Below, piece after piece: positions 7,206 to 60,211 of a stretch of DNA of 64,000 nt. The position numbers and the translations under genes are program-made. How positions within the stretch are numbered: position 1 is the stretch's first letter; each line of letters begins with the position of its first letter. This DNA comes from Tetraselmis striata (Eukaryota; Chlorophyta; Chlorodendrophyceae; Chlorodendrales; Chlorodendraceae). The DNA is taken from contig VCJN01000608.1 in assembly GCA_006384855.1 (NCBI GenBank), forward strand, positions 90,973 through 154,972. The letters run 5' to 3'. Under the pieces are notes generated by a model that was not told the DNA's origin, searched no databases, and worked only from the letters and a program-made list of their open reading frames with translations.

Positions 7206-7298
7206 AAAAGGTCGCGCAGGCTGTTTTACACGGTCAAGAGCCGAAATTGGCAGGAAGGTTTAGCGAAAAGCGTGGAGGGAAAACGGAGTCAGGGGGGG

Positions 7299-7485
7299 CG
7301 CTGCGTGGAACGCAGCGAAAACTGGAAGATGGCAGGCTCAGCTGTTCTGGCTGCTTTTATGTCTACTCGTGCTGCACCCAACAAGGGCGCAACAACAGTT
7401 ACTAGTTCCCGTACCACTGTGCAGCACTTGTAGCTGAAAAAGCGGTTAGGTCAAGGATGGAAACCCCATAAACTAGTTTAGATCA
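7299..7485. repeat. Split repeat B, internal copy (element 1)
   Basis: It is 187 bp and differs from the outer copy at 10195-10381 at one position by eye. It opens with a perfect 7-bp stem, CGCTGCG/CGCAGCG, around a short loop (TGGAA). Confidence 0.9.
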
Positions 7486-7511
7486 TTTCAAAGTTGAGTC
7501 TCGTTTTGCCA
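7486..7511. repeat. Split repeat A, internal copy (element 1)
   Basis: It directly abuts the end of internal repeat B, forming the B-A junction expected of a circular intermediate. Confidence 0.9.
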
Positions 7512-7564
7512 GTCTTGAGCGAACGTAGAGAGCGGTGGATTGACGGAGAAGGGGTAGCGCCAAG

Positions 7565-9190: not shown

Positions 9191-9226
9191 GGCTCCTGCA
9201 GCTCCGACGAGCGGCGCCCCACGCCA

Positions 9227-10081
9227 TCATTCGTGCTCACCTTCGCGGCCGCGTCCACGTCCGCCACCACGTCCTCGCCCACGCCCGCGGCCTGCAGCTG
9301 CAGCCGCTACTCGAGAAGTAGCGGTCGCCTTGGCGCTGCTGGCTACGGTCGCCTCGAAGACACGACGCTCGTAGTCTCTCATCAGGTCCCCAAAAATCGC
9401 AGAACCCAGATGCTCCGCAGCGGGCTGAAAATGCTGAGCTCGCAGCACATCCAGAACGCCTTGGTCACCGTGCACACGCTTGATCTCATTCAGCCTCCGC
9501 AGGAAGGCTAGACGAAAACGAAACGCCTTGTCGATGGCCTCGGCGTGATTCCGAGCTCTCGCGAGGTAGGGGGTGAAGTCCTGGTTAGTGGTGGGGACGT
9601 AAGGTAGCAGCTCGTCGAGCGCCACGAAAAGGGCGGCCATGTGAGCCCCGAAACACGACATCCACAAGTACTCCTCCTGGGCCGGCAGACGCCGGTCATC
9701 CTGCTTGAGGTACTCGTTCGTTAGGTCGGTGCTCAATGGGAAAAGTCCAGGCACTCGGCTGACCGGTCGAACGGCCTCGTAACCAGACTCTGCTCTCTGC
9801 AGTAGCTCTGGCACCGCGAGGTAATCATCCTCGGCACTCACGGATTTTGCTCCGACATGGCCGCTCTGGGCTAGCTCTAGCAAGTCGGGGCGCTCTGCGG
9901 CTCCCCCGCTGCCTGTCGGCTGTCCCGCGAAGCGCTGCCCGGAGCCGGAGCCATGTGCCCCTTCTCCATCAACAACGCGATCACGAGCCGTCAATTGTGC
10001 CACAGCTGTAGCCAATGCACGCACATCTGCTTGCAACGACGTGAGCGTCGGCTCAACGACGGGTTCTTCTCCATCTGACAT
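9227..10081 (-). CDS. Gag-like ORF1 of YR element 1
   Basis: This protein of about 284 residues starts at MSDGEEP; an upstream ATG at 10114 would add 11 residues, but MSDG is conserved in the second copy. It has an N-terminal heptad-like helix (ADVRALATAVAQL), a Gly/Ser linker, a helical middle region (EEYLWMSCFGAHMAALFVAL; AIDKAFRFRLAFLRRLNEI), and a C-terminal Arg-Gly tail (GRGRGRGRGGGRGRG) that would bind nucleic acid. It has no CCHC knuckle and no protease motif. Its position before the YR ORF and its RG tail make a Gag-like structural role the best inference; no sequence family was recognised. In the second copy this ORF is broken by one inserted base. Confidence 0.7.
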   Translation of the reverse strand: MSDGEEPVVEPTLTSLQADVRALATAVAQLTARDRVVDGEGAHGSGSGQRFAGQPTGSGGAAERPDLLELAQSGHVGAKSVSAEDDYLAVPELLQRAESGYEAVRPVSRVPGLFPLSTDLTNEYLKQDDRRLPAQEEYLWMSCFGAHMAALFVALDELLPYVPTTNQDFTPYLARARNHAEAIDKAFRFRLAFLRRLNEIKRVHGDQGVLDVLRAQHFQPAAEHLGSAIFGDLMRDYERRVFEATVASSAKATATSRVAAAAAGRGRGRGRGGGRGRGREGEHE

Positions 10082-10194
10082 AGTAACGCACGGACGTACG
10101 GACGAGAATATCACACTCGGATGGCGAGCCGGGTGTGGTCTTGAACAACCTGGGGTGACCTTGCTCGCAACGGGTTACGAGACAGTTTTTACAT

Positions 10195-10381
10195 CGCTGC
10201 GTGGAACGCAGCGAAAACTGGAAGATGGCAGGCTCAGCTGTTCTGGCTGCTTTTATGTCTACTCGTGCTGCACCCAACAAGGGCGCAACAACAGTTACTA
10301 GTTCCCGTACCACTGTGCAGCACTTGTAACTGAAAAAGCGGTTAGGTCAAGGATGGAAACCCCATAAACTAGTTTAGATCA
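10195..10381. repeat. Split repeat B, outer copy (element 1)
   Basis: It is the same 187 bp as 7299-7485, and its last base is the right end of the element. Confidence 0.9.
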
Positions 10382-18769: not shown

Positions 18770-20240
18770 CCAAGAGGCGCCTGGGAGTGAGAGGAAGGCA
18801 CAATAGTCGGCACCGCAGAGGCACGCCTTTCGGCCACCATGCTAGATGGTCGCGCACGAAGGCTCCACGCCGGCGTCTCCTCGCTGGTTTGACACGCCTT
18901 ACGCTTCGGCAGACGCTGAAAGTCGGCCTTGGCCTCGGCCTCGGGAGATGACGCTGCTTCCGAGCACGCACGAACGCCGGGTTCTGCTTGAATGGCTGCC
19001 TTTCGCCACCCTTAATGCCCTCGCAAAGCGCCCATATTTTAGCAACGGCTTACAACCTAAAAAATAGGGCGCTAGCATATAACAGAAACGCCTTTTTTGC
19101 TTGGTTTTTTTGTTTTTGCGAGCAACTCGGGATGCTCATAAGCCTTGCTCTGCTCGCCGCGTCGGAGGCGCCGTAGTATGTGCCTTCGAAGCGGTGGCTT
19201 CTATGCGACATGGCGACAAGTTTAGCAAGCCGTAAAAACACAAAGGCGCACAATAGCATTAAATCGCAACAAGGCCGCCAACCTTGGCGACATGCGGCGC
19301 CTCTTTCGTGGCCGGCTGCGTCTCGTTGGCAGTGGGGCGAGGGGTGCGTCGCTCGTGCCAGCGTGTGCAGTCGGGGGCTGTGGGTCGAACGTGCGATGCC
19401 GACAAAATTAGGAAGCCGTAGAAAAAGCAAAGGCGCTCAATCGCATTATATCGCAGCATGGCCACCCACCTTGGCGACTGGCGGCGCCTCTTTCGAGGTC
19501 GGCTGCGACTCGGCCGCACCGCGGGCAGGGTGTGCGTCGCTCGTGCCCCATTTTGCAGTCGGGGCCTGCGGGTCAAGCGTGCGAACGATGTCGATTGGGT
19601 CAAGCGTGCGATGGCGACATAATTAGCTATCCGAAAAAATAAAGCCCAACATAGTCTTACATCGCATCAAGGCCACCCACCTTGACGACCGGCGGCGCCT
19701 CTTTCGAGGCCGGCTGCGACTCGCCGGCAGTATGGCGAGGGGGGCGTCGCTCGTGCCAGCTTTTGCAGTTGGGGGCTGTGGGTTGAACTTGTGATGGCGA
19801 CAAAATTGGCAAGCTGTGAGAATATAAAAGCCCAACATAGCATTAAACCGCAGCAAGGCCACCCACCTTGGCGGCTGGCGGCGTCTCTTTCGATGCCGGC
19901 TGCGACTCGTCAGCCGTGGGGCGGGGAAATGCATCGCTCGTGCCACCTCTTGCCGACGGGGGCTCCGGGTCGAGCGTGCGATGGCGACATAATTAGTAAG
20001 CTGTGAAAATAGTCAAGGCCAAGATATCCCTACATCGCAGCAAGGCCACCAACCTTGGCGACCGGCGGCGTCTCTTTCGAGGCCGGCTGCGACTCGTCGG
20101 CAGTAGGGCGAGGGGTGCGTCGCTCGTGCCAGCTTTTGCAGTCGGGGGCTGTGGGTCGAACGCACGATGGCGACAATGTATCAGCAAGCCAAAAACATAT
20201 AAAAGCCATAGCATGACATCGCAGCAAGGCATGGCCATGT
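18770..20240 (-). repeat. Repeat region with ~186-bp tandem array (copy 1)
   Basis: Using ACCTTGGCGA as marker, units begin at 19281, 19468, 19679, 19865 and 20052, so the period is 186-187 bp except one of 211 bp that contains a ~24-bp internal duplication (GGTCAAGCGTGCGA). Each unit carries CAGCCGGCC... GAGTCGCAGCC-type and GCAAAAGCTGG-type sequence in reverse complement. The unique flank 18770-19190 also matches, in inverse orientation, 62450-62860. The whole block is thus an inverted copy of 59195-62860. No coding role is evident. Confidence 0.85.
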
Positions 20241-42852: not shown

Positions 42853-44995
42853 CTGGCGCCCCCGTCCAGCCCCGCAGGTAGTTGTCCTCTGTGCTCGCAG
42901 AACGCCTGCTGCTGTTAGCCTCGTACAGCCGTTAGCCCAGCTATATAAGCGCCACCATACCGCCTTTCTTGAGCTGACACCTGCAAGTGGCGAGAAATCT
43001 TGACCCTGCAGCGATAGGATGGAAGCAGGCGATAGCCACGGGTTTTAGTCACACCCTGCCGAAAAGGATGTCGACCCGCGGATGTCTACGCTCGCCCTAT
43101 GGCCGAGTCGCAGCAAGCCAGCGTCCCCGACGACGCATACGCCGACGCCCAAAAGATGTTTAGGCGCAGGTGGCGATGATAATGTCAATTGGGGTTCGTC
43201 CTGCTGATGTGCACCCGGCCGAAAAAAGGGATGAGTGGCGCCGACGATCGACTGCTCCATGCCTAATGTGTGCGAGGATGGGCTTGGCGTGCTGCGCCCC
43301 CCCCCCCCCCCCGGCCCCTCGCCCGCCCCCAACCTCCCTTCTCCCCACCCGAGCCTTACCGCCGCCCGGGCACGGCCATATTCTCGGTTCGACAACCACG
43401 ACGGAGTACTACCTTACGTATGGATTCGATATCTGTGGTTTCAAGCGAATAGGTCAAACCCGGGGTACCCAGGGTGGGTCACGCTTCTCGAACGGTATCA
43501 ATACGGCACAAGGTGACAACTTCGGTATCAGCCATTCATTCCTCGGTATTCTACCCGTACCCGTAGCCCAGAAATATTATCCCCCCCGGGGAGGCTCGCC
43601 GCCACGCTGGCCACAGTGCCACACCTCCGAAGTGTCGCCTGCTGACGGTGAGGCGGGTCCACAGGTCAGGCATACATCTGGGTTTGTCCGGTTCCAGTTT
43701 CGGTGGGCATGTGCAAGTTCTGCTCGTTCGTGCGTTTTTACGCGGCCCCGCCTCCTGCTGTGAGGGCACGAGTCCAGAAGTTGGACGGCTAAGTAGCGAC
43801 TACTCGGCGCTGGCGGCGCTGGTGGCGGGGTCATCGTTCTCATTTCATGTACGACTACCGTACTCGTACTGGTACGTATTATACGGTCGATGTACATCAT
43901 CAGTGGTTGTCGTAGCAATCAGACGCAACTGTCCGTAACTACTTTACCGGTATCGGTACGGGTTAATACCTGTGCACGAAAAAACAGGATCGAACATATA
44001 ATGCTGCATTTTGCTTACTACCAGCTGCTTACTAGCTACTTACTACTAGTTGCTTATGTAGTTGGGGTTTCCTTTGCCGTTGTTGGACCCAGGGTACCCC
44101 GGTACCCTGAATCCGCATTTTCTCTCTGTGAAATCCGCATTGTGAAGTGCTACTGCTGTACATGTGCCCAAGATGTACGACACCCAGATGATGCCAGTGT
44201 ACGGCACTTAAACTTCTCTGCCAGATTGCCTTCTTTGATGGAGCGGTGTCTACCCCAGTCGACACCTAGCCGGCTGGTATAAATTGTCAGCCTCGGCTCC
44301 TGTAAATTAAGTCAACTTCTCTTCCCAGAAATATGATTCCGACTCACACTTTCTCTCTCGTGACAGTGCCACTCAGCCATCACCGCGGCGACAGCGACTA
44401 CCTTTCGTCCATCGCCCACAGCTCACAACAACCCTTTGCCTTCCCAGTTTGCATCTCGCTTGCTGGCACTCGACGTGATTCGACGCATGCACGCCGACTC
44501 TCGACGACTCTCCTCCCATCAGTGACAGTGCCACTCAGCCATAACTTCGACAATCTCCCTCCGACATGTTTTTGGGCCCTCTCCTTTGGTTCGACGTCTT
44601 GCCCCTTGCTCGACGCCTGCCAGAGGCTTCAGCCTGCGTGTATCTCGACCCTCGACGGCTTTCAACGATCGACGGCGACACTCGTCGAAACGGGGTTCGC
44701 CTAACCGCGCTTAACACGGTACTTGTACTGTATCCGTACTCAATTTTACTGTACGATTACTGTATTCCGTATCACCCGCGCCTAACCCTCGCCTATATCC
44801 ACTTACAGTCAGCTTGTCTCCGCCTATTTGGCGGTGGTCGCGAGTACCCGCGCCGAGCCATGACTGCCATGGCAGTACCCGTACGCTAACGGTACGTGAT
44901 ATGAGTCCCTTGCGCACTTTTCGCCCCTCGAGTACCCGTGACACGGGCTCGCGTGTCGCGCGCCGACGCGGAGCCCCCGGGCTAAGTACATGCGG
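42853..44995. other. No supported gene
   Basis: A C run lies at about 43299-43314. From about 43800 to 43970 there are many short GTAC-containing words (GTACGACTACCGTACTCGTA). The open frames on both strands lack motifs. Confidence 0.4.
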
Positions 44996-45312
44996 CTGCA
45001 CGTACTCCCTGCACATCCATGCACATCCGCTGCACATCGCTGTGCACATCGCTGCACATCCCTGCACATCCGCTAAACATCCGTTGCACATCCCTGCACA
45101 TCCCTGCACATACATCGCTGCACATCCTTGCACATCCCTGCACATCCGCTGGACATCCGTTGCACATCGCTGCACATCCCTGCACATCCGCTGGACATCC
45201 GTTGCACATCCCTGCACATACATCGCTGCACATCCTTGCACATCCCTGCACATCCGCTGGACATCCGTTGCAAATCCCTGCACATCCCTGCACATACATC
45301 GCTGCACATCCC
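44996..45312. repeat. TGCACATCC minisatellite with higher-order units
   Basis: About 30 near-copies of a 9-12-bp word based on CTGCACATCC, with variants GCTGGACATCCGT and TACATCG arranged in repeated blocks. The Cys/Met-rich frames seen across it are artefacts of the repeat. Confidence 0.92.
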
Positions 45313-45348
45313 TATAGATATCGCTAGAGGGAGGGGAAGCTGAGGTCG

Positions 45349-45855
45349 TTGCCGTGGCGGATTTTTGAGTTCCTCCGTTGTTCTCTCGCATCGTCCGTTG
45401 ATGCTACATCGGGTTGGAGGCTGAAAACCCTTCGCGCCGACGCAGCGCCCCAACGATATGGCGCGACGCGAGAACTGCGCTCGGTGCGTTATGGTCGTTT
45501 CGGCCACCAGCCCGCCGCCTCCGAATTCTGCCGGAAGTGTGGCAAGTCCACCACAGTAGACGGCCTACCAGTGGTAGGCGAGGAGGCGTTGGTCTCGGCG
45601 GTGACCGAGGTGATGTACGACCGCATGAACGGCCACGGCCACCACATGGAGCTGCCAGTTGGCTACTCAGTGGGCCCAAGTGATCCAAAGGCATCGCCCT
45701 TCCTCATTGCCTTCGATGATCCCAAAGTATACGCAATGCGCGAGCTGCATGCGCTGTGCGAGGCGCATTTCATGCACCCGATGGACGATAGCGATGCTCT
45801 GCGCGATGTGATGGGCTGGGATTTAACGCACCAATCCCGCCACCGCTTCCCATAG
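45349..45855 (+). CDS. Unidentified ORF with a possible zinc ribbon half-site
   Basis: A 168-residue frame reads CRKCGK near residue 63, then VVGEEALVSAVTEVMYDRM, SPFLIAFDDPKVYAMRELHA and FMHPMDDSDALRDVMGWDL before its stop. The last 110 residues look like a folded globular protein, but I do not recognise the family. After the stop, another frame (about 45850-46150) continues with charged helical sequence (GKSEADKLEQ, SERARELGERARKL) broken by stops, which suggests a decaying or spliced longer gene. Confidence 0.4.
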   Translation: MPWRIFEFLRCSLASSVDATSGWRLKTLRADAAPQRYGATRELRSVRYGRFGHQPAASEFCRKCGKSTTVDGLPVVGEEALVSAVTEVMYDRMNGHGHHMELPVGYSVGPSDPKASPFLIAFDDPKVYAMRELHALCEAHFMHPMDDSDALRDVMGWDLTHQSRHRFP

Positions 45856-46339
45856 AGACGGGTGGCTATGTATTCCGGTGGGAGGCGCTGCCGGGCAAGA
45901 GCGAGGCAGACAAGCTGGAACAGTAGGCGCTCCGAACTGTGCGCTCAGAGCGTGCGCGTGAGCTGGGTGAGCGCGCTCGGAAGCTGCGCGCTACGGAGTG
46001 GCAGGAGCGCATGGAGCGAGAGTGAGCGGCTATCTCAGACAACACCAGCGAAGGCGACTATTCAGCGCCCCGCACATCGGCGCAGTTCTGAAAGCTACGA
46101 CAGCATTGACAGCTGGGATGCGGTAAAGTGCGGGCCATATGAAAAGAAGTACTTCATGCAGAGGAGGGCGGGGCGCGAAGCAACGATCGATGGAGGCGGG
46201 AGGCGAGGCGTTCAACATCGGTGAGGGGGGCTGAGGGCAGCGGTGAGCCGAGCACCTGCCGCTCATGTGACATGGTTGTCTATGGCAAATCCAATAAGGG
46301 CGAGGAGGGGGAGGGACACGCTCACTAGATGTAATTAAT

Positions 46340-47050
46340 GCATTCACATCTTCCTTCGCTTCGTCGCCGCTTTCTCTGCCATCTCTGCCTTCACGGCACA
46401 CGCCTTTGCCTTGGGCAGGTGGGGCTGTGCACGATGGGCTGGTCCATGCATGTCACGGTGGTGCGCGATCAAGGTCATGCGCGTCGTGACTTGGCCAGTC
46501 ATGGAGAGCATCACCTTGCCGGACTTGAGCAGGTGCTGGGGCTGTTGGTTGCTGCCGTTGCGGAAGCCCTCCTTGATCTCCATGTTTGCAGTGCTCCATG
46601 CACTGAGCACTCAGTGCGTCAAGGTTGCCATGCAGTTCTATCCACCGGGAAATTGCCGTCATGCAACTTCATGCACGGAGTGATGTCCTTTGCTGCCGCG
46701 ATGTCCATGAAGGCTGCGAAGAATACCTTCGTAGCTGCCCGTAGCTTGTAGGTCAAGGTAACTTATTTCGTTGTCGCTGAGCGCCACCTCAAAATCAGCG
46801 CGATGACTTCGCCTCCCGTTGTGTTTGCAGTTGGAGATGCGTGCTATCAACGCCTATGAGCACTGGACTGTGGGAGGGCCCGATCAACACTGTCTTCCAG
46901 CATGACTTTGTCTTCCCGCCCAGGATTGTGCATGGCAGACTTGTCACATATACATGGACAGAGGCCATCAGCATTGCCGGCAGGGGGCGGCGGCAAAGGG
47001 CCGCTGGTGACGCTGTGCCGAGGCAGATGATCATGTGATGGGCCACCTGT
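46340..47050 (-). pseudogene. Unidentified coding-like remnants
   Basis: Minus-strand stretches such as FEVALSDNEISYLDLQATGS (about 46790-46730), NMEIKEGFRNGSNQQPQHLL and LPKAKACAVKAEMAEKAATK (46610-46344) are protein-like but lie in different frames. A preceding stretch (47046-46795) reads KTKSCWKTVLIGPSHSPVLI. They may be exons or remains of a transposon gene. No family is assigned. Confidence 0.25.
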
Positions 47051-47823
47051 GTTATATATTATTGCTGAAGCATCTTACATGTTGTTGCTTTCCTGCACTT
47101 TGCGCTGATGCTGATAGTGTAGCCCGGCACGGGTGGTGCTCCTACTGGAAGCACTCCCATGCCTACGACATCGCCGCCCTCGATGAGGATGATGGCGGTG
47201 TTGATGCCATGCAGTAGTAGCATATACGCAGCAACCGTGGCGTGTGAAAATTGAGCATATCCATATGTTGCGGGAGCAGTTGCGTAGTATGGCAGGCGCA
47301 TGATACATATAGGCGTCGGTTGGGTCTAGGGTTTCCAAATGTAATGTTAAGCAATACTATCTTACGAAACATGGCCAATCTGCATTATGCTTGCACATGC
47401 ATGCTTCACTAATTTTCCTGACACACTCACAACATATTTTTTCTGATACTGACAACATGGGTCAATGTTACGCATGGATGCCGCGGTGTACTTCAGTATC
47501 GTCGCGAGCAGGTATTGTCAACCGATGTTGACACAAAAGTTTGCATTTGTCTTTGCCGTTATACACATCTGTACTTTTGTGAATTTCATGTCATTTGTGG
47601 TATGTATGTTGATATGCATGTAATCTGTTCAGCAATAAGATTCATGTGAAACGCGTTGTGCATTACATACAACAGCAGATGCATCGTAGTGTCATTGATA
47701 ATGTTATTGTGACGCCCCGGGTACCGAGGTACCATTACTACTCGAGACTGATGCAATGATGTAAAGTACGTGATTAGCCACCAGCCGCGCGCGCACTTTC
47801 ACTCTTCGGCACTTCCTCGCTCG
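47051..47823. other. No gene seen
   Basis: Comparatively AT-rich sequence. A GGTACCGAGGTACC palindrome lies near 47718. Confidence 0.5.
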
Positions 47824-48690
47824 ATGCTTCGCCTATTTATGCTGACCGCTTCGCATGAAGAGCAGATCGCCCTGCTCGCCCCCCGTGCCACCATGGCCTC
47901 CGTCAGCACCTTCCATGCCGCTGCCGGGACGGATGACGCGTCGTGGGAAGATATCATGCTGCCGAGAGGAGCACGCGAGCCCCCGCCTGTCCCGCGCGGC
48001 CCGCCCTTGCGCTACTACCTCACGACAGTCAGCGCCGATGACACGTCGAGCGTTTTTGACTGGTCAAGCTGAACGGCCCGTCTGCCCACCCTAATTGACC
48101 GTGGAGGAGGAGCAAGCTGCCTTGCTTAAATCGATGAAGCCGACGCATGCAGCAAGGGTTCTTTGCATCCCCAGTGCAAAGGTGCGCTTGCCGGCCGGTT
48201 TACTTGCTCAAAGTGTAGCTGCTGATGTTGTCGCTGCCCGAGTGTCGGCGACTTAGTGTTTTTTCTTTCATCACTACCGCAGTCCGGAATCGACCAGAAC
48301 GGCGTTCCGGTGCAAGACCTGTCTACCGGCTACAGCCCCCCTCCCCCGCTCGCTCGACGAGCTCATGTTCCCCGTGCGGCTAGATCCCCGGCGCTTCAGG
48401 ACGCTACTGCGAGAATGCAGGCTGGACGCCAAAGGAAGCAAGCGCAACGGGAGCGCGCGGCGGCATCGTGCCAGCCCCGTCAAACAAGCTCCTTAGCCGC
48501 GGGGCGCAGCAGATGGCAGGAGCTGCCATGAATAGCATGCCCGCAGAAGTATCTGCAGGCAACAAGGGGCAGTCAGCACCCGAGCCGACAGCGGGCATAA
48601 CACCACATGCCGGCGCCAGGAAGAGGCCGGCGGCAGCGGAGCCAGCCGGCCGCAGGCCATGGGGGGCGGGCACGGGCCGGGGGCGGTAGT
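47824..48690 (+). CDS. Unidentified ORFs, possibly exons of one gene
   Basis: A frame at 47824-48072 (MLRLFMLTASHEEQIALLAP... SVSADDTSSVFDW-like) is followed by KSMKPTHAARVLCIPSAKVR-type sequence near 48130-48200 and by a Pro/Ala/Arg-rich frame at 48256-48690. No motif was recognised. It may be part of an element that lies next to YR copy 2. Confidence 0.25.
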
Positions 48691-49396
48691 AGACCCATTG
48701 TAATTAAATTTCTAGTATTTCCCTAATACTTTATGCAGTTGCCGACCCCTCCGCCATAAATCCGAAATGTCCGGTGCCTTAACGTTAAATTTGCCAGCTA
48801 GGAGTAGGCGCGCCCATGTCCGCTTAACCACATCCCGAAGCTCGACGCTCATTGGCCGCTGATCCAGCTTGGCACCTCACCTTCATTAAATCACAAAACC
48901 AACCATGACTACCGTGTAATGCATTTTTGCAGCCTTTGTTGTGTATCGACCAGTACCGTACTGCCCCGCCTGCTCGTTATCATCACTCGTCATCACGCGG
49001 GTATCTTCCGCGTTTCAAAGTTGAGTCTGGTTTTGCCAAAAAGGTCGCGCAGGCTGTTTTACACGGTCAAGAGCCGAAATTGGCAGGAAGGTTTAGCGAA
49101 AAGCGTGGAGGGAAAACGGAGTCAGGGGGGGCGCTGCGTGGAACGCAGCGAAAACTGGAAGATGGCAGGCTCAGCTGTTCTGGCTGCTTTTATGTCTACT
49201 CGTGCTGCACCCAACAAGGGCGCAACAACAGTTACTAGTTCCCGTACCACTGCGCAGCACTTGTAGCTGAAAAGCGGTTAGGTCAAGGATGGAAACCCCA
49301 TTAACTAGTTTAGATCATTTCAAAGTTGAGTCTGGTTTTGCCAGTCTTGAGCGAACGGAGAGAGCGGTGGATTGACGGAGAAGGGGTAGCGCCAAG

Positions 49397-51022
49397 TCAT
49401 GAAGGAGGCACTGGGAAGGCCACCGCTGCGGAGTCCTGTTGGACTTGGAAGTGGCGGAGGGGGGCGATGTGTCCAAAGAAGAACCACGCGCCAGGAGAAG
49501 GAAGAACGTTGGGGTCGATGTAGTCCAGAACGACATCAGAGTTAGTGGCCCAACCGCCCTGGTAGCGGATGTGGGACAGTGGCACTCCAATGGCGTTTGC
49601 TGCAGAGGCTGCGCCCTTGCGTAGACTGTGTGAAGTCCAGGAAGTGCCAGCAGGGGGGGCAGCGTTGACTAGGTTGACTGCTGTAGACAACCAGTCTGAC
49701 ATCGTAGCAGCAGTCCAAGGTTTTGACTGCTCAGCCACATTGACAGCCCAGAAGTTGGAGGTAGCCAAGCCAACAGTAACCAGGGGGACAGACTGGACGT
49801 TGTCGATGAAGTAGCGCAAGAGACGTGCCACTCGAGGGTGCTCGGACACTGGAAGGAGAAGTACGCGCAGGTCGTCAGGTCCCCGCCGGCCGGCGCGGCC
49901 CTTCTCGCGGTAGATCTGCAAGGTGATGTTGTAGGTGTCGACATGCACATCTTGCACTCGACAGGAGACGCCAGTAAGGCCCCTGGCAAAGAACAGGAAG
50001 TTGACAACCGAGGCCAAGAGGGCTCGGTAGTCGAAGTGGGACTCTAGGTAAGGAGCAGACACAATTAGCTCGGCCTTTGAGACGAAGCGGTAAGCCACAT
50101 CCGCAGGCAGAGGGACACGCAGAGGGGCAGCGTCCAGTCGACGCTGACGTAACATTAACCCACGTCTTGCCGAAGTGAGGTGTAGGCTGTCCTTGGCGAT
50201 CGGGACGAGGTTGTGCAGCTCGAAGAAGGTGTTGATGGCAGACAGATAGGGCTGCAGCGACTTAGCTGCGATATGCCCTCGCTCCCCGATCCAGGCAACG
50301 TACCGAACAACAGTAGCAGTAGTCGCCTCTAGCGGGCTGATGTTCTCGGAGTCGTGGCAGAACTCAGCGAACTGAGCCAACCTGCCGGCGTAGCTCTTGA
50401 GGGTCTGAGCGCTGAGGGAGCTGTAGAGCAGGTCGAGCGTCCGCTGGCCTAGCTCGTCTGAGCCGAACGCGTCCTGTAGTCGGGATCGCAGTGACGCAGG
50501 CCACGGAGCGATAGCTGCGGGCTCGTCGATTACGTAAGTGCGTCGTTTTACTGACAGAGTGCCACCGGCACGGCTACTGTTCGCAAAGTACTCGGCAGCA
50601 GCGGTTAGGTTCCCGGCGGTTGGCCGGTAGTTGCTGGACGGGTTTGCAGTAGCTTCAGTACGGGTTTGCGGGGCTAGGTTCAGGTAGGAGGGCCGCCCCG
50701 CGCGCCCTTCGCGCTCATAGCGCCTGTCCCGTGCGTAACGTACACGCGCGAAACTTGGTCGTTGCGAACCGGTTGTAACTTGTAGTGTAACAACCGACGA
50801 ACGCAGAGATGGGGTTGTAGGAAAGGCGGATGGTTGAGCCGCCATGTGCAGGTGTGCGGATGTTTGAGCCGCACTCGGCTGTAGCTGTAAGAAGCGCCGC
50901 ACCGAGGAAGGTCTAAATGAAGTCTGTAAGGTGGGGGGGTCAGGTCTTGACACAGGGCGCTCATCCCGCCGTTGAGCTGCAAGGGTGCGTCTTGCGGCGG
51001 TCACCGAAAGGTGGCCTCGCAA
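49397..51022 (-). CDS. Tyrosine recombinase of YR element 2
   Basis: This intact 541-residue frame has the same length as copy 1 and 18 substitutions by eye. All catalytic boxes are kept: LTGVSCR, HSLRKG (about 465-470), GGW and LDYIDP (Tyr at about 501). The changes are mostly conservative and concentrated in the N-terminal low-complexity region, consistent with purifying selection or recent amplification. If ORF1 is required in cis, this copy may depend on copy 1-type protein. Confidence 0.9.
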   Translation of the reverse strand: MRGHLSVTAARRTLAAQRRDERPVSRPDPPTLQTSFRPSSVRRFLQLQPSAAQTSAHLHMAAQPSAFPTTPSLRSSVVTLQVTTGSQRPSFARVRYARDRRYEREGRAGRPSYLNLAPQTRTEATANPSSNYRPTAGNLTAAAEYFANSSRAGGTLSVKRRTYVIDEPAAIAPWPASLRSRLQDAFGSDELGQRTLDLLYSSLSAQTLKSYAGRLAQFAEFCHDSENISPLEATTATVVRYVAWIGERGHIAAKSLQPYLSAINTFFELHNLVPIAKDSLHLTSARRGLMLRQRRLDAAPLRVPLPADVAYRFVSKAELIVSAPYLESHFDYRALLASVVNFLFFARGLTGVSCRVQDVHVDTYNITLQIYREKGRAGRRGPDDLRVLLLPVSEHPRVARLLRYFIDNVQSVPLVTVGLATSNFWAVNVAEQSKPWTAATMSDWLSTAVNLVNAAPPAGTSWTSHSLRKGAASAANAIGVPLSHIRYQGGWATNSDVVLDYIDPNVLPSPGAWFFFGHIAPLRHFQVQQDSAAVAFPVPPS

Positions 51023-51058
51023 GGCTCCTGCAGCTCCGACGAACGGCGCCCCACACCG

Positions 51059-51935
51059 TCACTCGTGCTCACCTTCGCGCCCACGTCCACGTCCGCCGCC
51101 ACGTCCTCGCCCACGTCCGCGACCTGCAGCTGCAGCCGCCACTCGAGAAGTAGCGGTCGCCTTGGCGCTGCTGGCAACGGTCGCCTCGAAGACACGACGC
51201 TCGTAGTCCCGCATGAGGCCCCCAAAGATCGCAGAACCCAGATGCTCCGAAGCAGGCTGAAAATGCTGGGCTCGCAGCACATCCAGAACACCTTGGTCAC
51301 CGTGCACACGCTTGATCTCATTGAGCTTCCGTAGGAAGGCCAAACGAAACCGAAACGCCTTGTCGATGGCCTCGGCGTGGTTCCGAGCTCTCGCGAGGTA
51401 GGGGGTGAAGTCCTGGTTGCTGGAAGGGACGTAGGGCAGTAGCTCGTCGAGCGCCACGAAAAGGGCGGCCATGTGGGCACCGAAGCACGACATCCACAAG
51501 TACTCCTCCTGGGCCGGCAGACGCCGGTCATCCTGCTTGAGGTACTCGTTCGTTAGGTCGGTGCTCAAAGGGAAAAGGTCCAGGCACTCGGCTGACCGGT
51601 CGAACGGCCTCGTAACCAGACTCTGCTCTCTGCAGTAGCTCTGGCACCGCGAGGTAATCATCCTCGGCACTCACGGATTTTGCTCCGACACGGCCGCTCT
51701 GGGCTAGCTCTAGCAAGTCGGGGCGCTCTGCGGCTCCCCCGCTGCCTGTCGGCTGTCTCGCGAAGCGCTGCCCTGAGCCGGAGCCATGTGCCCCTTCTCC
51801 ATCAACAACGCGATCACGAGCCGTCAATTGTGCCACAGCTGTAGCCAGCTCTCGCAGTAATGAAGACTGGGCCCTCATATCTGCGTTCAGCGACTGCAAC
51901 GTCGGCTCAGCGACGGGTTCTCCTCCATCTGACAT
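51059..51935 (-). pseudogene. ORF1 (Gag-like) of YR element 2, frameshifted
   Basis: It starts MSDGGEPVAEPT at 51935 and carries a 7-residue insertion (QSSLLRE region) relative to copy 1. One extra G at about 51578 (GGGAAAAGGTCC against GGGAAAAGTCC in copy 1) shifts the frame. The downstream two thirds, including the RG-rich tail, remain open in the other frame (51670-51059). Confidence 0.85.
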
Positions 51936-52234
51936 AGTAACGCACGGACGTACGGACGAGAATATCACACTCGGGTGGCGAGCCGGGTGTGGTCTTGAAA
52001 ACCCTGGGGTGACCTTGCTCGCAACGGGTTACGAGACAGTTTTTACATCGCTGCGTGGAACGCAGCGAAAACTGGAAGATGGCAGGCTCAGCTGTTCTGG
52101 CTGCTTTTATGTCTACTCGTGCTGCACCCAACAAGGGCGCAACAACAGTTACTAGTTCCCGTACCACTGCGCAGCACTTGTAGCTGAAAAGCGGTTAGGT
52201 CAAGGATGGAAACCCCATAAACTAGTTTAGATCA

Positions 52235-52597
52235 CGTACTCGTGAGGAGGCGCGCGCCTAATAGCAGATATGAAGGGCGGCGATTCCCGTAAAGTACAGT
52301 GACTCGTGTACTCGTGTCGTATTTTGTGCACTCGTGACTACCGAGTACCCGCTACTCGCTATAGTACTTTGATGCAGGGCTCCGCTGCCGTACTAATCCT
52401 TACCGCCAAGTTTAAAGTACTGTGACGCCTAACGTTAGACGCGATATATACAGGCGACTACTCGCGCCTGGCAGTCGTTAAACGCGGTTAAGCGGACCCC
52501 GTTTCGACGAGTGGACGTGCGACGAGACTTTACTTCCCACCTGCCCACCCCTACAGTTATACATATTCCAGCACAAGTGCGCCATCATCCCTTCGCG
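52235..52597. other. Spacer, rich in GTACTCGTG words
   Basis: Possible 5' LTR or leader of the copia element that follows, but no second LTR copy is present in the window to confirm it. A ~35-bp stretch near 52475-52510 (GCGGTTAAGCGGACCCCGTT) recurs in reverse complement near 44690. Confidence 0.3.
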
Positions 52598-54436
52598 ATG
52601 TCTACCAGCATCACCACTGGCATGATAAACACCCCCTGGCCAATCTGGCTCGGCAGAGTGCGATCAAGACAGACCCCGGCAACGCCCCACCACCACTTGA
52701 CTTCCGTGATGATATCAATTCTGATGACGCCTTCAGCCTAGACGGGGCATCGGACAGTCTGTGACTCAGATGACACCCAACATATCGAGCCGGCTGCAGT
52801 GAAGCCGACACTCGACCTCAAGAACGTCCCCATCCGGGACAACATCCTTTCTACGCGGGACAACGCTCAAGCCATCAAGATCCCTCTCGGCAGCGCCGGC
52901 TACTTGGACACCACCAAGGGCAAAGGCACCCGTCAGGAGCAAATGATCCTCCTAGCAGCCCTGCGCCATGCAACAGCGAATTATCTCATGGAACTGGCCA
53001 TCGTCAACAGCATCAGCATGGAATCCAGGAAGTGTGGATATACAGCCTGGAAGGCCCTTCTTACTGAGCTCCAAGGCTCAGCCATGGAGGAGCGCAAGCG
53101 CTTGGAGGAGGAGATCACGGCGGGCAAGCTCCCGAATGAGCCACTTCACGTGTATGTTTGGCGCCACCAGAACCTCTGGAATCTGTTGAACAAGGCACAT
53201 GGCCAGTGGACCTTCGAGTACGTGGCCACCAACTACCTCATCCCAGGCCTTCACCCGGACTACGGTCATATCCTCGACACCACCACCTCGGCGGCCACTG
53301 TCAACGCGAAGCTGGCAACCATCATCAGCGCCGGACAGAACATGGAGGCGCGCAAGCGTCATCGTCAGCAGCGCGTCCGCGCGTGCCCGCCAAACCTCAA
53401 TTCCTACAACCCCAGGGACCCGCAGCACACCACCAGCCCCAGCGTTATCTGCAGACGGTGTGACCGTCCGGGCCATACCCAGCAGCAATGTGTGGCCAGG
53501 CGCCATGCCAACGGCCTGCGTATCCAACATGACACCGCGCCGACCGGCACCATGAACGGCCCTCGCTATGACCGTCATCAGCGCGAACCTGCGGAGCGTC
53601 GCGTCAACACCAGCTATGGCCACAACCCGCGAGACAACTACCGTCATCAGGCGCCGCCGGGTCGGAATTTCTACAACGACACCAATCAGGACAGGCTTCA
53701 GCGTCAGCAGCGTTGGACCAACAAGGGCGGCAACGACGGCATGCAGCGTCATCAACAGCCGGTCGGCCTCGTCTCCCCGGCCGGACATCAGCACCATGGG
53801 CATCAGCATGCCAACAACAACTTCACCCAGCGGCCCACGGGACACCGGGAGGCCTACCCGTTCATGGGTGTGTCCCCATCGGCACAGCATCACAACAGCC
53901 TGCCCATTATGCTCACCTGCACCACCGCAGCCCCAGGAGGGGCGGCCACCGGAGCACAGGAGGGGAAGGGCGAGGACAGCGCGGAGGATGACTTACATGA
54001 CCCCTGGTACGTCCCCTACTCCGACTCTTATGACGACTTCGAGTCCCCGTTCTCACACCCATGGCGTGTCCACCACTCCCGCCCTCACCCCGACGCCTTT
54101 CCGATTTTCGATACCCCCGACATCCCCCCCCCCACCCCCCCGCTGGAACATTTATTCCCATCCCTACCCTCTCGATCCCCCCATCCACATGTCCGACATC
54201 AATTGGCAACGCCCTCAACCCGTCCCCACCCCAGCCCAACCCCTATGCCTCACCTCACCCACATTCCCAGCCTCAGCGGCGTTGGCGTCCCACGTCCTTT
54301 ATGCGGAGCAAGGCGCCCTGCGTGGCAACCCGCCACCAACGCTACCGCTCCTCACCGCAGCGCCGAACCTCCAGCTGCCCACCTCTCTGGTCATCGACCG
54401 TCTTTTTTCGTCGTGCCATGGCCCATCGGCATCTGA
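52598..54436 (+). CDS. Gag of the methyltransferase-bearing copia element
   Basis: The long open frame is 52799-54436. An N-terminal extension from about 52598 (ARQSAIKTDPGN... DDINSDDAFSL) is in another frame and ends at a stop near 52762. The Gag core has helical capsid-type sequence (LAALRHATANYLMELAIV; CGYTAWKALLTELQG; KLPNEPLHVYVWRHQNLW), as in copia UBN2/retrotran_gag domains. A single zinc knuckle, CRRCDRPGHTQQQC, is at about residues 218-231 of the long frame. His/Arg/Gln-rich and Pro/Ser-rich tails follow. It would form the element particle and package RNA. Confidence 0.8.
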
Positions 54437-55330
54437 GGTAGAGGCTCAAGTAGAATGCGGTTTCACATCCACAAGATCACCGGCGCCGACCCATCGCCCG
54501 AGGCTCGTACTATGTGGACACATCGCCTACATGTCATCAGCGACAAGTACCCGGACCGTTCTGCCCCCATCAGCTTTTCAGGATTGCCATGCTAGGACCC
54601 CCATGGACGTCAACGACATCACCATCACGGCGCTATAGACCCTTCGCCCGGTCACCCTCATCGTGTCAGGCCCACCGTGTCAACCATGGTCACGCGCGGG
54701 TTCACGCCTTGGCTGGCAAGACCATCGCTCTCGGGCCTTTGCTTCCGTCATCGGTTTCATCCGTTTCTACATGACTACACAGCCCACACCGGTGCGCTAT
54801 ATTGTGGAGAATGTTCTAGGCGCGCTGGACTTCCCTGAGATACTCTCTTCACTTGGCACCGGCAACATCATGCGTGCGACCGCCTGCGGCTCGGCAGCTC
54901 ACCGCGACACCCTCATGTGGGCCAATATTGCTCCACAAACAGACATCCAAAACTACATCAACAACATCAACACCATCGAGCTCACCGACCCCGGCCCCTG
55001 CCCGTGGGACCTCTGCCTCTCTGAGTTGCCCCACTTTGCTCCGGTGGTGACAACCGACTACTTTCCAAAGTTCGTCGCCCGCCCCGGCTCATACGCCTTT
55101 CGCATGCAAACCAACGGTCCGCCGGGCGCTGGCATGGTATACGAACATGATGTTCCCTGGTCCTGGGCAGACAACGGCAGATGGTGCGAACCCCCTGCAG
55201 CTCTACGCGCTCGCGCCATGGGCTTCACCTTGGAGGATCTGCCCACATCGCACCTTTCCGAGGCGGCACTGCGCAAACTTCTCGGCGGAGTCATCGATCT
55301 CAACGTCATGCGCAACTACATCAAGGCTGT
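54350..55330 (+). pseudogene. DNMT3-like cytosine-5 DNA methyltransferase domain inside copia Pol
   Basis: The C-terminal part lies in the same open frame as protease and integrase. Visible motifs are: catalytic motif IV GPPCQPWS (Cys codon near 54678), motif VI ENV (about 54807), SAAHR (about 54891, the same words as in DNMT3 motif VIII), and a C-terminal RARAMGF... LLGGVIDLNVM block matching the target-recognition end and motif X. Before it, MDVNDITITAL and the phrase LRPVTLIVSG match the DVRNIT... FDLVIGG stretch of DNMT3, with a TAG stop between (54636-54638). Further upstream, HRLHVISDKYPD and LFSSCHGPSA/EVEAQVECGF look like the motif II-I region in two frames. If active it would methylate DNA cytosine. 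This copy has a frameshift and a stop, and motif I is poor. Confidence 0.85.
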
Positions 55331-57600
55331 CTCCGGCGCCGCCCCTTCCCCAGTCGTCATCACTGTCTGTCACACGTCATACGGCACCGTCATCAGCAGC
55401 GACGAGGAGGCATGGGTGCTCATCGACTCGGGCGCATCCTCTCACGTCAACGCCCACCGCACCGACTACATCTACTACATGGATATTCCTGCGGCGGAGC
55501 AATTTCTGGTGGGCGGCTTCGGGCAACCGGCAATCGGCATCGGCACCACAATGGCAGCACCACTGGACATCACCGGCATGCCATATACCATTGTGGCACG
55601 AGACTGTTACCATACTCCCAACATCACCTCCAGTGTCGGTCTCACCAACATTAGCCGCCTGCTCAGCACCCATCAACTCAGCAAGCATGGCTACTCTTTC
55701 TACTTCAGCCGCCTCCTCAACAGCATGATCACCCCAGATGGCGCAGTAATCCACCTTCAGCCCTACCCCGGCACCACAGGCATATACGGCATCAAGCTCC
55801 ATCCCATCCACGATCCCTCTCATGGGGTCATGGCGCTGCCATCTCCGACGGCTTCTCACTCCCTGTGGCATAATTTTCGACTTGGTCATCGCTGTGCACG
55901 CCACATGGCACTCACCCAGAAGCACGCCATCGCCATCCCGACACTCGACTTGGCACCAGAGGCCATCTGCCCATCATGCATCCAGGCTAAGTCCCACCAG
56001 CAGTCGGTCAACCGGCAGCCCTCCCCACGCGCGGCAGCGCCATACGTGCTCGTGGTCATCGACGACTGGAAGGAACCTTGCCCGTCGGTCACTGGCGCGC
56101 AGCATGTCTTTGGCGCAATGGATTCCTACACTGGAGTGAAGGTAGCGATCACTATGCGCACCAAGGACGAGGCCGTCCGCGCCATCCATCAACTCCATGC
56201 GGCTGTGCTCGGCATGGGTCACACCGTTCAAACGCATACGTGCCGATCGCAGCGCAGTTTATACCGGGCTCTCCGGTCCGTCAAGCATGCGCTGATCTCA
56301 ACATCGCGCTGGAGCTTACCGCGTCCCACTCTCATCATCAGGCGGGCATGGCGGAGCGCTCTTTCCGCACTATCGGTGAGTGTGCCCAAGCCATGCTCCT
56401 CCACGCCGGCCTCGACCGCACCTTTTGGGATTGGGCGGCGCATCTTCACGCCGTCTATCTCTGCAACCGCCAGTGGAGCTTGTCCGTCAACGCCATACCT
56501 TACACGCTGATGACCGGCCGCAAGCCCGACCTCACCGACCTGCATGTTTTTCGGCTGCGTGGCCTGGGTCAACATCCCTTTGACTATGAGGGCAGCCAAG
56601 GAAAAAATGACACCTAAATCCTGGCCGGGCATCTACGTTGGCCACCATGAGGACTCCGCCGGCTACCCCATATGCAACCCGGCTACCAAGCGCGAAACAG
56701 TGACACGCGATGTCGTCTTTGACGAGGTAACACGACCCTTCTCCAGCACACCGGCTCTCTCTATGCCAGTCTTCCAATTTCCCGACGATGACCACCTGCT
56801 GGATGAGCCGCAGCCCTTGGACCAGCATGAGGGGCCCCAAGCACCGCCACCCATGCCACCATCAGCAGCGCTTGACTCGGCGCAGGAGGGGCCCCCATCT
56901 CGCATCAAGACGAGCGGTATCTTCCGCGTCATCAAGAGGGGGACGCCACGGCACTACCAGCTCCACTCCAGCGGATCGGCGCACATGCCTTCCTCTTATG
57001 TCGATCTCGGCGACTACCACCCCCGCGCTAGTGGCATCCGCCATCGCGGAGGTTGTGCGCCCCTACCCGGCACGGATGGCAGCCCTCCGCCCTACCGGCA
57101 CCCACTGTCCGCGTATCCAAGGCGCCGCGCAACTACAAGGAGGCCATCTCCAGCAATCACCCCGATGACTGGAAACAGTCCATGGACCGGGAGATCGCCT
57201 CTATCACCAAGATGGAGACTTTTGTTTGGGTCAGCGTCCCTGAGCTTCGACGTGACAACCCATAAGCAATAATCATACAGACAGCGTGGGCCTTCGCGGA
57301 GAAACACGACAAGGATGGCAACCTCATCAAGCGCAAGCCCAGAGTGGTCGTCCGCGGCTATCAACTTACTGTCGGCGAGAACTACGATGACACCAAGACC
57401 TATGCCCCAGTCGTCAGCTTTATCGCCTTGCGCACCACTATTGCTCTCGCAGCTCAACTCGACCGGGAGTTTGTACCATTTCGACGTCGCCTGTGCTTTC
57501 CTCAACGCTAACCTCGCTGAAGATGTCTACGTCTTGCCCCCCCCCCCCCCCCTCCCCGGCTACGGCATTTTTGAGTCAAACGGTCTTATTCTTGGACTCA
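54639..57600 (+). pseudogene. Protease-integrase-RT part of the copia Pol
   Basis: The open frame 54639-56510 contains, after the methyltransferase, the protease active site VLIDSGASSHVN (Asp codon near 55425), the pre-integrase box LWHNFRLGHRCARH (about 55863-55905) and CPSCIQAKSHQQS, then the integrase start (VVIDDW, FGAMDSYTG). A frame change near 56230 leads to MAERSFRTIGECAQAML and FWDWAAHLHAVYLCNRQWS (integrase DDE end). Another near 56560 leads to GIYVGHHEDSAGY. The RT begins with APRNYKEAISSN and continues RVVVRGYQLTVGENYDDTKT and DVACAFLNANLAEDVYV (first catalytic Asp), then ends. Frameshifts and truncation make it defective. Confidence 0.85.
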
Positions 57601-57620
57601 AAAATGTGCCCCCCACGTGA

Positions 57621-58706
57621 TCGCTTAGGCTGGGATATGTACCCACTTTTCGGGCACGTTTCAGGTGCAATGCAATACTTTGGTGGCGACAAGGGCAGCG
57701 GCGGACGGTGTTGACAGGGGGATCAAGGGCCTTGCGTTTAGCCGAGACACGACCGAACCTCACAGGACAAGCGGGGCCGGCTTGCCGCCGCTGGCTTCGG
57801 GATTTTGCGCAGCACCATCGGACGCGGCCGGCTGGCCGCGGAAAGGCTGCATACATAACCGAATGCAGCCAGTCAAGCATGTAAATCACGAGTGGTACCT
57901 CGTAACGTATACGCACAGTCTAGTGGGCGTGAGGACGGGGCAAGATGGTTGTCAAGTGCGGGTTCTCGGTGATCGGCTATCGCGTCCGACCGAGGAGCTG
58001 GGCGCACACGCCCCTTGTAGACCGCCTAATTGGCTCCGCCATCGCCGGTAGTGGCGGATTCCAAGCAACCGCGAGGAAAATTATGGCAACGGCAGTGGAG
58101 GGCGGCTACGTCACGCACGGGGTGTGTGCTGTAGCTCGCAGGCGGGGGGAGGAGCCAAGCTGCTTGGTGGTATTGAGCGTTAACTCGAAAAGCTAATCAA
58201 GATATCGACCCACCGGTGCAGCCCCCTTCGCCAGGCTACAACGTTGACCACCTCGCCAACACCCACGCACCACAGACCTCCAAGGGGTTACATTGAACCC
58301 CTTTGAGGCCCTAAGTCCGGTCATAGGCCCTGCTTAGGGTGCTAAGCATGGCCTTGAAGGCTGCAGAGTTAACGGGTGTATTACTAGACACGGGTGCATT
58401 CGTAGAAATGTTAGATGGTAGTATCACCTCTCCACCTTCACCAAGGCTGCCAAGAACCCAAATAGGGGCGTGGCAGACAGATACATAGAGAAACGGACCC
58501 ACGCGACACAGCCCCCCCAACGTCTTAACTCTCACAAAATGGCGCAGACCCCCGGATTCGTGACAGGAATGGACTCCGCCCACCTTCGGCGTAGGTCCGC
58601 ACGGCTAGTAAGTTGGCATGCTGCCGCCTCTTACGTCCATGTGCCTTACCTGTCATGCATTCCCTGCCCTCTCTAGATACGCAGTTCACGCTATTAGTTA
58701 CTTGTT
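57621..58706. other. No gene seen
   Basis: Unique sequence after the truncated RT, with no LTR or coding motif identified. Confidence 0.4.
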
Positions 58707-59194
58707 GTGCAGGTTGGGCTAGGCCTCATCCCGGTGGAGGTGCCGGGCACCCCCCCCCCTCCCCCCCCGGCACGCGGTCACCCTCGCCAGAGATTGCCAA
58801 CAGGCCCGCCCGTCCCTCACCGCCAAGGGATGCGTATGCTCGACCTGCCCCCACCCGACGTTCTCGTCGCGTCGCGACCGTGGCCGCTCGCCGCGGGTCA
58901 AGGGCATGGCCCGCCAGCCGCAAACATGTCGCCGAGATTGGCTGCCGTTGTTGATGCGGCCGAGGGTTGGCCTACGTCTGGCGATAGCCATGCTGGCGAG
59001 AGCGGCGGGCAAGGAGCCTGCGCGTCGGCAGCCACACCCTCCGGACTTGCGCCCATATTCGGCGGGGGTGAGGAAATGCCTAATGCCATCGGCTCGGAGG
59101 CTAACGGCGTCAATACCACCATACCCCAAGGTAAGAGCTTCAAAATACGCAGGATGGATGGGGGGGGGGGGGGGGGGGGGGGGGGGCTTGCCTG
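58707..59194 (+). other. Open frame without recognised motif, ending in a long G run
   Basis: A 190-residue Pro/Ala/Gly-rich frame runs into a G homopolymer at about 59160-59186. It may be an exon of a host gene whose intron carries the G run. Nothing identifies it. Confidence 0.25.
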
Positions 59195-60211
59195 CTGTGG
59201 TGCGCGCACTTTTGTATTTTTACGCCTTGCTAATTATGTCTCCATCGCATGTTCCACCCACAGCCCCCGACTGCAATAAAAGCTGGCATTAGCGACGCAC
59301 CCCCTGCCCCCGCTGCCGACGAGTCGCAGCCGGCCTCAAAAGAGACGCCGCCAGTCGCCAAGGTGGGGGCCTTGCTGCGATGTAAGGCCATGTTGGGCTG
59401 TTTTAATTCTCGGCTTGCTAATTATGTCGCGCCATCGCACGTTCGACCCACAGCCCCCAACTGCAAAAGCTGGCACAAGCGACGCACCCACGCCCCCGCT
59501 GCCAAAGAGTCGCAACCAACCTCAAAAGAGGCGACGCCGGTCGCCAAGGTGGGCGGCCTTGCTGCAATGTAAGGCCATGTTGGGCTTTTGTAGTTTTCGG
59601 CTTGCTATGGATGCCGCCATCGCACGTTCCACCCACAGTCCCGACTGCAAAACCTGGCACGAGCGACGCATCCCCTGCCCCCGGTGCGGCCGAGTCGCAG
59701 CCGGCCTCGAAAGAGACGCCGCCAATCGCCAATCAGGGAGGGGGCCTTGCTGCGATATAATTCGGTGGTGCACTAATGTATTTTTACGGCTTGCTAATTA
59801 TGTCGCCTTTGTACGTTCCACCCACAGCCCCCGAGTGCAAAAGCTGACATGACCGACGCACCCCCTGCCCCCGCTGCCGACGAGTCGCAGCCGGCCTCAA
59901 GCATAGAGCCGGCGCCAGTCGCCAAGGTGGGCGGCCTCGCTGCGATGTAAGGCTAGGTTGGGCTGTTTTAAGTTTTTTGCTTGCTAATTGTGCCGCTATC
60001 GCACGTTCCACCCACAGCCCCCGACTGCAAAAGCTGGCACGAGCGACGTACCCCCTGCCCCCGTTGCCGAGGAGCTGCAACCGGCCTCGAAAGAGGCGAC
60101 GCCATTATTCGCCAAGTTATTTGGCGGCATTGCTGCGATATAATGCAATTGTGCACCTTTCTAGTTTTCGGCTTGCTAATGATGCCGCCATCGCACGTTC
60201 GCCCCACATCC
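59195..60211 (+). repeat. ~186-bp tandem array (copy 2), left part
   Basis: Using GCCAAGGT as marker, units lie at 59357, 59543, 59728, 59921 and 60111 (periods 185-193). Sequence such as CCCGACTGCAAAAGCTGG and GAGTCGCAGCCGGCCTC is shared with the reverse complement of 19200-20240. The array resumes at 62238 after an LTR element insertion. Confidence 0.88.

Follow-up and report, generated by a model that had tools for sequence, protein, structure and literature searches.

The 64,000 nucleotides of Tetraselmis striata DNA analysed here (the window) hold what looks like a cytosine methyltransferase lodged between the Gag and protease regions of a copia retrotransposon. T. striata is a chlorophyte of the class Chlorodendrophyceae. 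We asked whether this enzyme is an accident of one damaged copy or a regular part of a retrotransposon, and what it may do there.

A decayed copia element in the window

The window carries a decayed copia element in two parts, 44081-44677 and 52516-57545. Its leader is split by a nested insertion and everything past the start of the reverse transcriptase is lost, and the copy is therefore an old relic, dead and nested. Its features, located largely by comparison with a long-frame copy elsewhere in the genome (L011, described below), are:

44081..44566, + strand: 5' LTR, 83% identical to the L011 LTR (blastn against the window)
44568..44677, + strand: first part of the leader, 94.5% identical to L011 (blastn)
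44678..52515, no strand: nested insertion of 7.8 kb that splits the leader (gap between two collinear L011 blocks, and self-comparison of the window)
49013-52234: putative tyrosine-recombinase element inside the nested insertion (recombinase judged by eye)
52516..52596, + strand: remainder of the leader, up to Gag (blastn with L011)
52598..54386, + strand: Gag region and linker (ORF 52799-54436)
about 54387..55331, + strand: cytosine-5 methyltransferase domain, motifs I to X, between Gag and protease
55419..55451, + strand: aspartic protease motif LIDSGASSHVN, read from the translation
55818..55994, + strand: gag-pre-integrase, the N-terminal part of the integrase (Pfam PF13976, E 9e-6, 25.8 bits, below the 28.4 cut-off)
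55995..56543, + strand: integrase core, approximate limits, frame-broken
56550..56735, + strand: SH3-like retroviral polymerase domain (Pfam PF25597, E 1.6e-14)
57109..57545, + strand: start of the reverse transcriptase (blastn of L011); the element ends at 57545

A weak CCHC knuckle in Gag (about 53447-53515) falls below the Pfam cut-off, and blastn of L011 against the window gave no match for the RNase H part or the 3' LTR.

The methyltransferase region matched the Pfam DNA_methylase profile (PF00145) at 26.9 bits (E 4e-6), above the curated cut-off of 22. The first-pass annotation had placed methyltransferase, protease and integrase in one uninterrupted frame, 54639-56510. This frame is indeed open, and runs through GPPCQPWS, ENV, SAAHR and LLGGVIDLNVM into DSGASSHVN and the gag-pre-integrase. 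The description thus fits the C-terminal part of the enzyme and everything up to the gag-pre-integrase, but the N-terminal half is divided between two frames, with an in-frame stop just before the GPPCQPWS block, and the integrase core and downstream parts are frame-broken. Since its frames are split and interrupted by a stop, the window copy does not make a whole enzyme; the codons for the catalytic Cys, Glu-Asn and Arg are all kept. A second locus, L009 on contig C308, matches window positions 51093-59302 at 99.66% identity with the flanks included, and is thus the same insertion seen on another haplotype or in a duplicated segment rather than an insertion of its own.

The putative recombinase element within the nested insertion is one of two copies of a 3.2-kb element in the window (49013-52234 and 7180-10381, 95.4% identical), with direct terminal repeats of 186-190 bp, a Gag-like ORF and a 541-codon ORF that appears tyrosine-recombinase-like by eye. 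It is possibly DIRS- or PAT-like and non-autonomous; no reverse transcriptase was seen in it. A minisatellite-like array (period about 190 bp) is also found twice in the window, at 59171-60211 and, in the opposite orientation, at 19210-20230.

A young, multi-copy family with signs of constraint on its methyltransferase

We searched the 224-Mb assembly (224,097,584 bases in 2903 contigs) in six frames for further copies of the window family, here called F1. The search, which scored 71 of 843 candidates, gave at least 85 matches, several of which may come from one broken copy, and at least seven of them lie in stop-to-stop frames of at least 1800 codons. At the protein level, 25 sequences matched residues 1-250 of the frame 54639-56510 with identities of up to 100%; together with 27 matched by alignment A1, all are EukProt models of Tetraselmis striata, making 49 distinct proteins. 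From the genome we fetched 20 F1 loci, 16 of which have LTR pairs. The first-pass annotation had proposed to look for full copies; two of the 20 loci (L011 and L012) hold a single ATG frame of 2052 codons.

In L011, Pfam identified the methylase, the gag-pre-integrase (residues 1067-1130), the integrase core rve (1145-1242; 29.2 bits, under the 32.6 cut-off), the SH3 domain (1302-1375) and RVT_2 (1559-1790), with the protease and RNase H recognised by sequence words only. The order protease, integrase, reverse transcriptase and RNase H within one polyprotein is that of Ty1/copia elements. The LTRs are about 481 bp long with ends TGTTGG...CCGACA (TG..CA). Both boundaries could be located in 15 of the 16 LTR-pair copies (those of L020 were not found), and all 15 are flanked by perfect 5-bp target duplications. 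Four of these 15 copies have identical LTRs, and the 15 pairs together differ by 27 substitutions. The target duplications and near-identical LTRs indicate that F1 insertions are recent and were made by an integrase. F1 is therefore a multi-copy Ty1/copia family with a single polyprotein in the order Gag, methyltransferase, protease, integrase, reverse transcriptase and RNase H; the slot between Gag and protease, first seen in the window, is kept in the F1 copies elsewhere.

The methyltransferase could, in principle, be a gene that landed by chance in one copia copy, or an artefact of reading frames, and the window copy, broken at several places, might give that impression. Such an accident would not recur in many copies on separate contigs with precise LTRs and target duplications, nor would it leave signs of constraint or have relatives from other sources (both described below), and we consider its probability negligible. 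The first-pass annotation had named a missing methyltransferase match, or other copies without the domain, as findings that would speak against it; the Pfam match is there, and all 20 fetched F1 loci keep the domain.

The domain is a cytosine-5 methyltransferase as judged by its PF00145 match and its active-site residues, with the L011 copy reaching 36.9 bits. The catalytic PC of motif IV, EN of motif VI and Arg of motif VIII are kept in all 21 aligned F1 rows (the 20 fetched loci and the window), five of which have a stop within the domain. F1 motif I is unusual (LFSPCHGPSA), and the motif VIII Arg is missing in three F1 protein models (P0003, P0005 and P0013) among the 49 predicted proteins.

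Compared with L011, 18 of 20 rows had a methyltransferase dN/dS of 0.06-0.33, the other two being without synonymous change; because the copies are related, these rows are not independent. The corresponding values were 0.06-0.60 for Gag, up to 0.54 for the protease, up to 0.33 for the integrase, up to 0.67 for the reverse transcriptase and 0.33-1.25 for the linker, where the 0.67 comes from a gappy row and some rows in the set are frame-broken. Variants among the 16 LTR copies, with each single-base codon variant counted once, gave a raw pN/pS of 0.31 for the methyltransferase (24 synonymous and 23 nonsynonymous), next to 0.29 for the integrase, 0.34 for Gag, 0.35 for the protease, 0.38 for the reverse transcriptase-RNase H part and 0.52 for the linker. 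Constraint on the F1 methyltransferase thus appears comparable to that on the integrase and reverse transcriptase, and these codon statistics show signs of its upkeep as a part of the element.

One enzyme lineage in copia and LINE elements

PF00145 matches occur at 123 places in the genome, and among those long frames that were read the methyltransferase sits in the same copia slot in at least three further lineages besides F1. Family F2 (L029, with a frame of 2295 codons and LTRs 98.7% identical, and copies L030, L032 and L035) and the related F2b (L033 and L034) have the order Gag-CCHC-methyltransferase-protease. F3 is represented by L069 and by an N-terminal part in L026, and its domain is matched at 98-100% by nine frames of 2113-2147 codons. 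F4 (L071) has frames of 2164 codons on contig C193 and 2152 codons on C1860, the assignment being based on the C193 reading. A LINE also carries the enzyme: L031 (143-8695 on contig C2687) has a reading frame of 2851 codons with endonuclease, RVT_1, a PCIF1-family stretch, methylase and RNase H, so that the methyltransferase lies between reverse transcriptase and RNase H; the LINE is matched at four loci, with 92-100% identity. PF00145 scored 45.8 bits for L029 and 35.3 for L031; L069 of F3, at 19.4, stayed below the cut-off. PC and ENV are kept in the F2, F2b, F3, F4 and LINE rows.

The genome also contains abundant copia elements that lack the methyltransferase (F0, represented by L070), with recurring frames of 1561 codons. 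An unrooted six-row Pol tree fits both a loss of the domain in F0 and F0 as an outgroup. In F2, the two pairs of greater divergence had a methyltransferase dN/dS of 0.18-0.20, and the two closest, which have few changes, had 0.41-0.56; with 0.38-0.87 for protease-integrase in close pairs, the picture is less clean than in F1. One F2 copy, L032 (contig C2406), has a methyltransferase dS of 0.19-0.20 to L029 and L030, as opposed to 0.03-0.09 for Gag, linker, protease-integrase and reverse transcriptase; in these pairs the methyltransferase is thus two to six times as diverged at synonymous sites as the rest. Its methyltransferase segment looks as if swapped by recombination, a hint of ongoing exchange.

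The alignment of the F1, F2, F2b and LINE domains extends from motif I through motif X and takes in the stretch between motifs VIII and IX, which serves target recognition in known enzymes. The F1 domain shares 34% identity with its LINE counterpart and 31-34% with its counterparts in the other copia families. When about 5.8 billion proteins were searched with a profile, scoring those candidates that were 0.55-1.75 times as long as the query and had the most shared words, 430 matched. Among the best 120 of these 430, 14 scored 140-271 bits and the rest at most 55 bits, the latter being bacterial where named. The 14 comprise three T. striata proteins and 11 from public 'ena' contigs, presumably environmental; of these 11, P0052 and P0053 carry a copia Pol_BBD domain, P0051 runs into RNase H (recognised by words), and the remaining ones group with the LINE by eye and in the tree. 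P0056 also seems, by eye, to share the PCIF1 stretch, which in L031 (PCIF1_WW, PF12237, E 9e-15) lies between reverse transcriptase and DNA methyltransferase. A viral origin was considered and not adopted: no relative turned up when IMG/VR was scanned with the F1 alignment, and the four-family alignment matched 29 loci there at 27-38% identity, over restricted parts of the domain within query residues 58-210 of 302.

In phylogenetic trees the retroelement methyltransferases and their public relatives form one clade against eight bacterial rows (support 100/100). Two origins for the copia enzymes were considered, as a first tree joined F1 with the LINE (83/80), but AU tests do not reject a single copia clade (p = 0.116, 0.127 and 0.389). 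One clade spanning copia and LINE elements implies that the enzyme passed between LTR and non-LTR elements one or more times, unless two captures were made from one vanished source.

A further set of sequences, here called derivative B, consists of Gag and a truncated methyltransferase. Among the 49 predicted proteins motif VI has Gln in 12 and Glu in 19, and 11 of the 12 Gln proteins lack the protease motif (P0015 has protease and integrase). For one Gln protein, P0017, 13 genomic matches cover almost the full length, and 11 of these are stop-free, in frames of 927-1237 codons; the Gln itself was read in predicted proteins rather than in each genomic match. Because P0017 corresponds to a continuous genomic frame, the loss of the target recognition domain, protease and integrase is genomic and does not reflect an intron of the gene model. 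Derivative B is present in high copy, on contigs C1266, C124, C554, C317, C427, C835, C870, C1912, C1892 and others. Full elements presumably supply what it needs to move, and it may work in trans, either as a decoy or by dampening the active enzyme. Its frame has stayed open even though the element is non-autonomous.

One reading of these observations is a 'retro-DNMT' cassette that would have moved between retrotransposon orders: a single lineage of methyltransferase, carrying its own target region, shared by at least four copia lineages, which have it in the same slot, by the LINE and by the relatives on public contigs. Taken jointly with the decoy or dampener role of derivative B, we regard this reading as evenly balanced between right and wrong.

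Retrotransposon-borne DNMTs are known from dinoflagellates and charophytes (PMC5890265), a precedent that the first-pass annotation had correctly named. The T. striata elements share with those the presence of a DNMT in the retroelement coding frame, multiple copies and constraint. KnitGypsy-Dnmt3 of Klebsormidium nitens is likewise an LTR retrotransposon of a green-lineage alga with a methyltransferase in its Pol frame, for which conserved key residues and purifying selection are reported; however, it is a Gypsy element of a charophyte with a DNMT3 in the authors' tree, whereas ours are copia elements of a chlorophyte (PMC5890265). Symbiodinium resembles T. striata in having several retroelement orders with DNMTs in one genome, at high copy (SymbioDIRS-Dnmt3 and SymbioLINE-Dnmt), but there each order has a separate enzyme, an orphan one in the LINE and a DNMT3 in DIRS, unlike the single lineage shared by copia and LINE here; also, the SymbioLINE methyltransferase is in an ORF upstream of the reverse transcriptase ORF, and that of the T. 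striata LINE is between reverse transcriptase and RNase H in one ORF (PMC5890265).

A study of 2025, in one sentence of its section 5, lists 'LTR Copia and DIRS' retrotransposons as bearers of DNMT3 (PMC12344493). Its data were EukProt proteomes, from which our T. striata proteins also come; as references the sentence gives the streptophyte and dinoflagellate cases of 2018, for which the 2018 paper says Gypsy. The main text of the 2025 study does not mention Tetraselmis, and its supplement may list these proteins; 'LTR Copia' possibly denotes either the earlier cases or the T. striata proteins. By title or abstract we found no account of methyltransferase-bearing Tetraselmis retroelements, and as far as the literature was searched the chlorophyte host, the several copia lineages, the enzyme lineage common to a LINE and the altered-site derivative are new.

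Possible roles of the enzyme

The best explanation, in our view, combines the dead nested copy in the window, a methyltransferase maintained in a retroelement lineage, and methylation of the element's own cDNA; jointly, these are slightly favoured over any departure from them. Since the methyltransferase adjoins the protease in Gag-Pol, copia biology suggests that it would be packaged in the Gag-Pol particle together with the reverse transcriptase, to be freed there by the protease. It would then methylate the double-stranded cDNA of the element before or at integration, so that a new copy would arrive at the chromosome pre-marked; the mark could mask the copy as resident DNA, or reduce its expression and hence its cost. 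Self-cDNA methylation has been proposed for SymbioDIRS, and CG methylation was shown in yeast, by de Mendoza and colleagues (PMC5890265).

The choice of DNA as substrate is suggested by a DNMT3-like fold, the retained active site and the retained target region, cDNA being the double-stranded DNA of the element prior to integration. The modelled structure of the relative P0052 has a Rossmann methyltransferase fold, nearest to DNMT3 and then HhaI, of similar domain size to the catalytic domain of DNMT3A/B and with about 20% identity to DNMT3 in the structural alignment. The first-pass annotation had called the window enzyme DNMT3-like, and F1 does contain the words DV.DIT and SAAHR; the fold of this relative agrees, but the sequence profiles give DNMT3 no lead (HaeIII 37.5, DNMT2 36.5 and DNMT3A 34.2 bits; with an F1-only profile, DNMT3B 18.6 and DNMT2 18.5). 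A tree gave 95/90 for kinship with DNMT3, but in an alignment where the DNMT3 rows are only 32-43% filled. Among NCBIfam cytosine-methylase models, TIGR00675 (dcm) matched all four proteins searched, well under its cut-off, and there was one weak PRK10458 match and no other.

The scoring of DNMT2, a tRNA methylase, as high as DNMT3A is compatible with an RNA substrate, whereby the enzyme would methylate genomic RNA or the primer tRNA in the particle, for RNA stability or priming. Copia and LINE proteins both bind RNA, and an RNA substrate would explain how one lineage serves both; the PCIF1-family stretch in the LINE would also fit. On the other hand, the P0052 model is nearest to DNMT3 and HhaI, with DNMT2 absent among the 50 structural matches listed (an absence that proves nothing), and both copia and LINE rows retain the stretch from motif VIII to motif IX. 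We regard RNA methylation as unlikely, though a serious alternative to methylation of the cDNA.

Methylation of the cDNA also presupposes catalysis. The Gln variants of motif VI, the open P0017 frames and the unusual F1 motif I would fit a domain that serves the polyprotein as a module for binding DNA or RNA or for assembly, and the spread of derivative B with an altered site indicates that a working enzyme is not required in cis. However, such a module need not have retained Cys, Glu-Asn and Arg in every fetched F1 locus and in the window, or PC and ENV in the other copia families and the LINE, making a purely non-catalytic role distinctly unlikely.

As to the target, the enzyme might mark insertion flanks or the genome at large instead of its own cDNA, thereby tuning host silencing or target choice. 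The copy number is high here, and de Mendoza and colleagues discuss effects on the whole host in Symbiodinium (PMC5890265); but the slot beside the protease suggests packaging, and the window, with a CpG observed/expected ratio of 0.99, has no sign of CpG decay. We consider a host-DNA target improbable. A CpG footprint sought in the 15 young LTR pairs gave transitions at 2 of 856 CpG and 15 of 3126 other C/G positions, no excess in these small counts, and the CpG ratio in L011 is about 0.89. These values argue against strong CpG marking; other sequence contexts or faithful repair would be compatible with them. The self-cDNA reading also has to accommodate the unusual motif I, the models without the motif VIII Arg, the stops, the F2 dN/dS values, the abundance of methyltransferase-free copia elements and the spread of derivative B.

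Retroelements bearing the silencing chemistry of their host had been known from two lineages, where separate element orders had separate enzymes; here one enzyme lineage occurs in both LTR and non-LTR elements of a green alga and has persisted there in families that are young and rich in copies. The same nucleus holds copia elements with the enzyme, copia elements without it and an altered-site derivative, and these natural contrasts make the question of what a transposon gains from DNA methylation testable in T. striata.

Cytosine methylases of another type also occur in the assembly. A standalone, bacterial-type enzyme with the motif PPCVGLS is encoded in 325-codon frames at L036, L037 and L038 (contigs C1993, C1230 and C493); it is found at several places, three of them on one contig, and is possibly carried by another mobile element. 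L039 on contig C2009 encodes a 630-codon cytosine methylase of bacterial look, on a contig that may be bacterial contamination.
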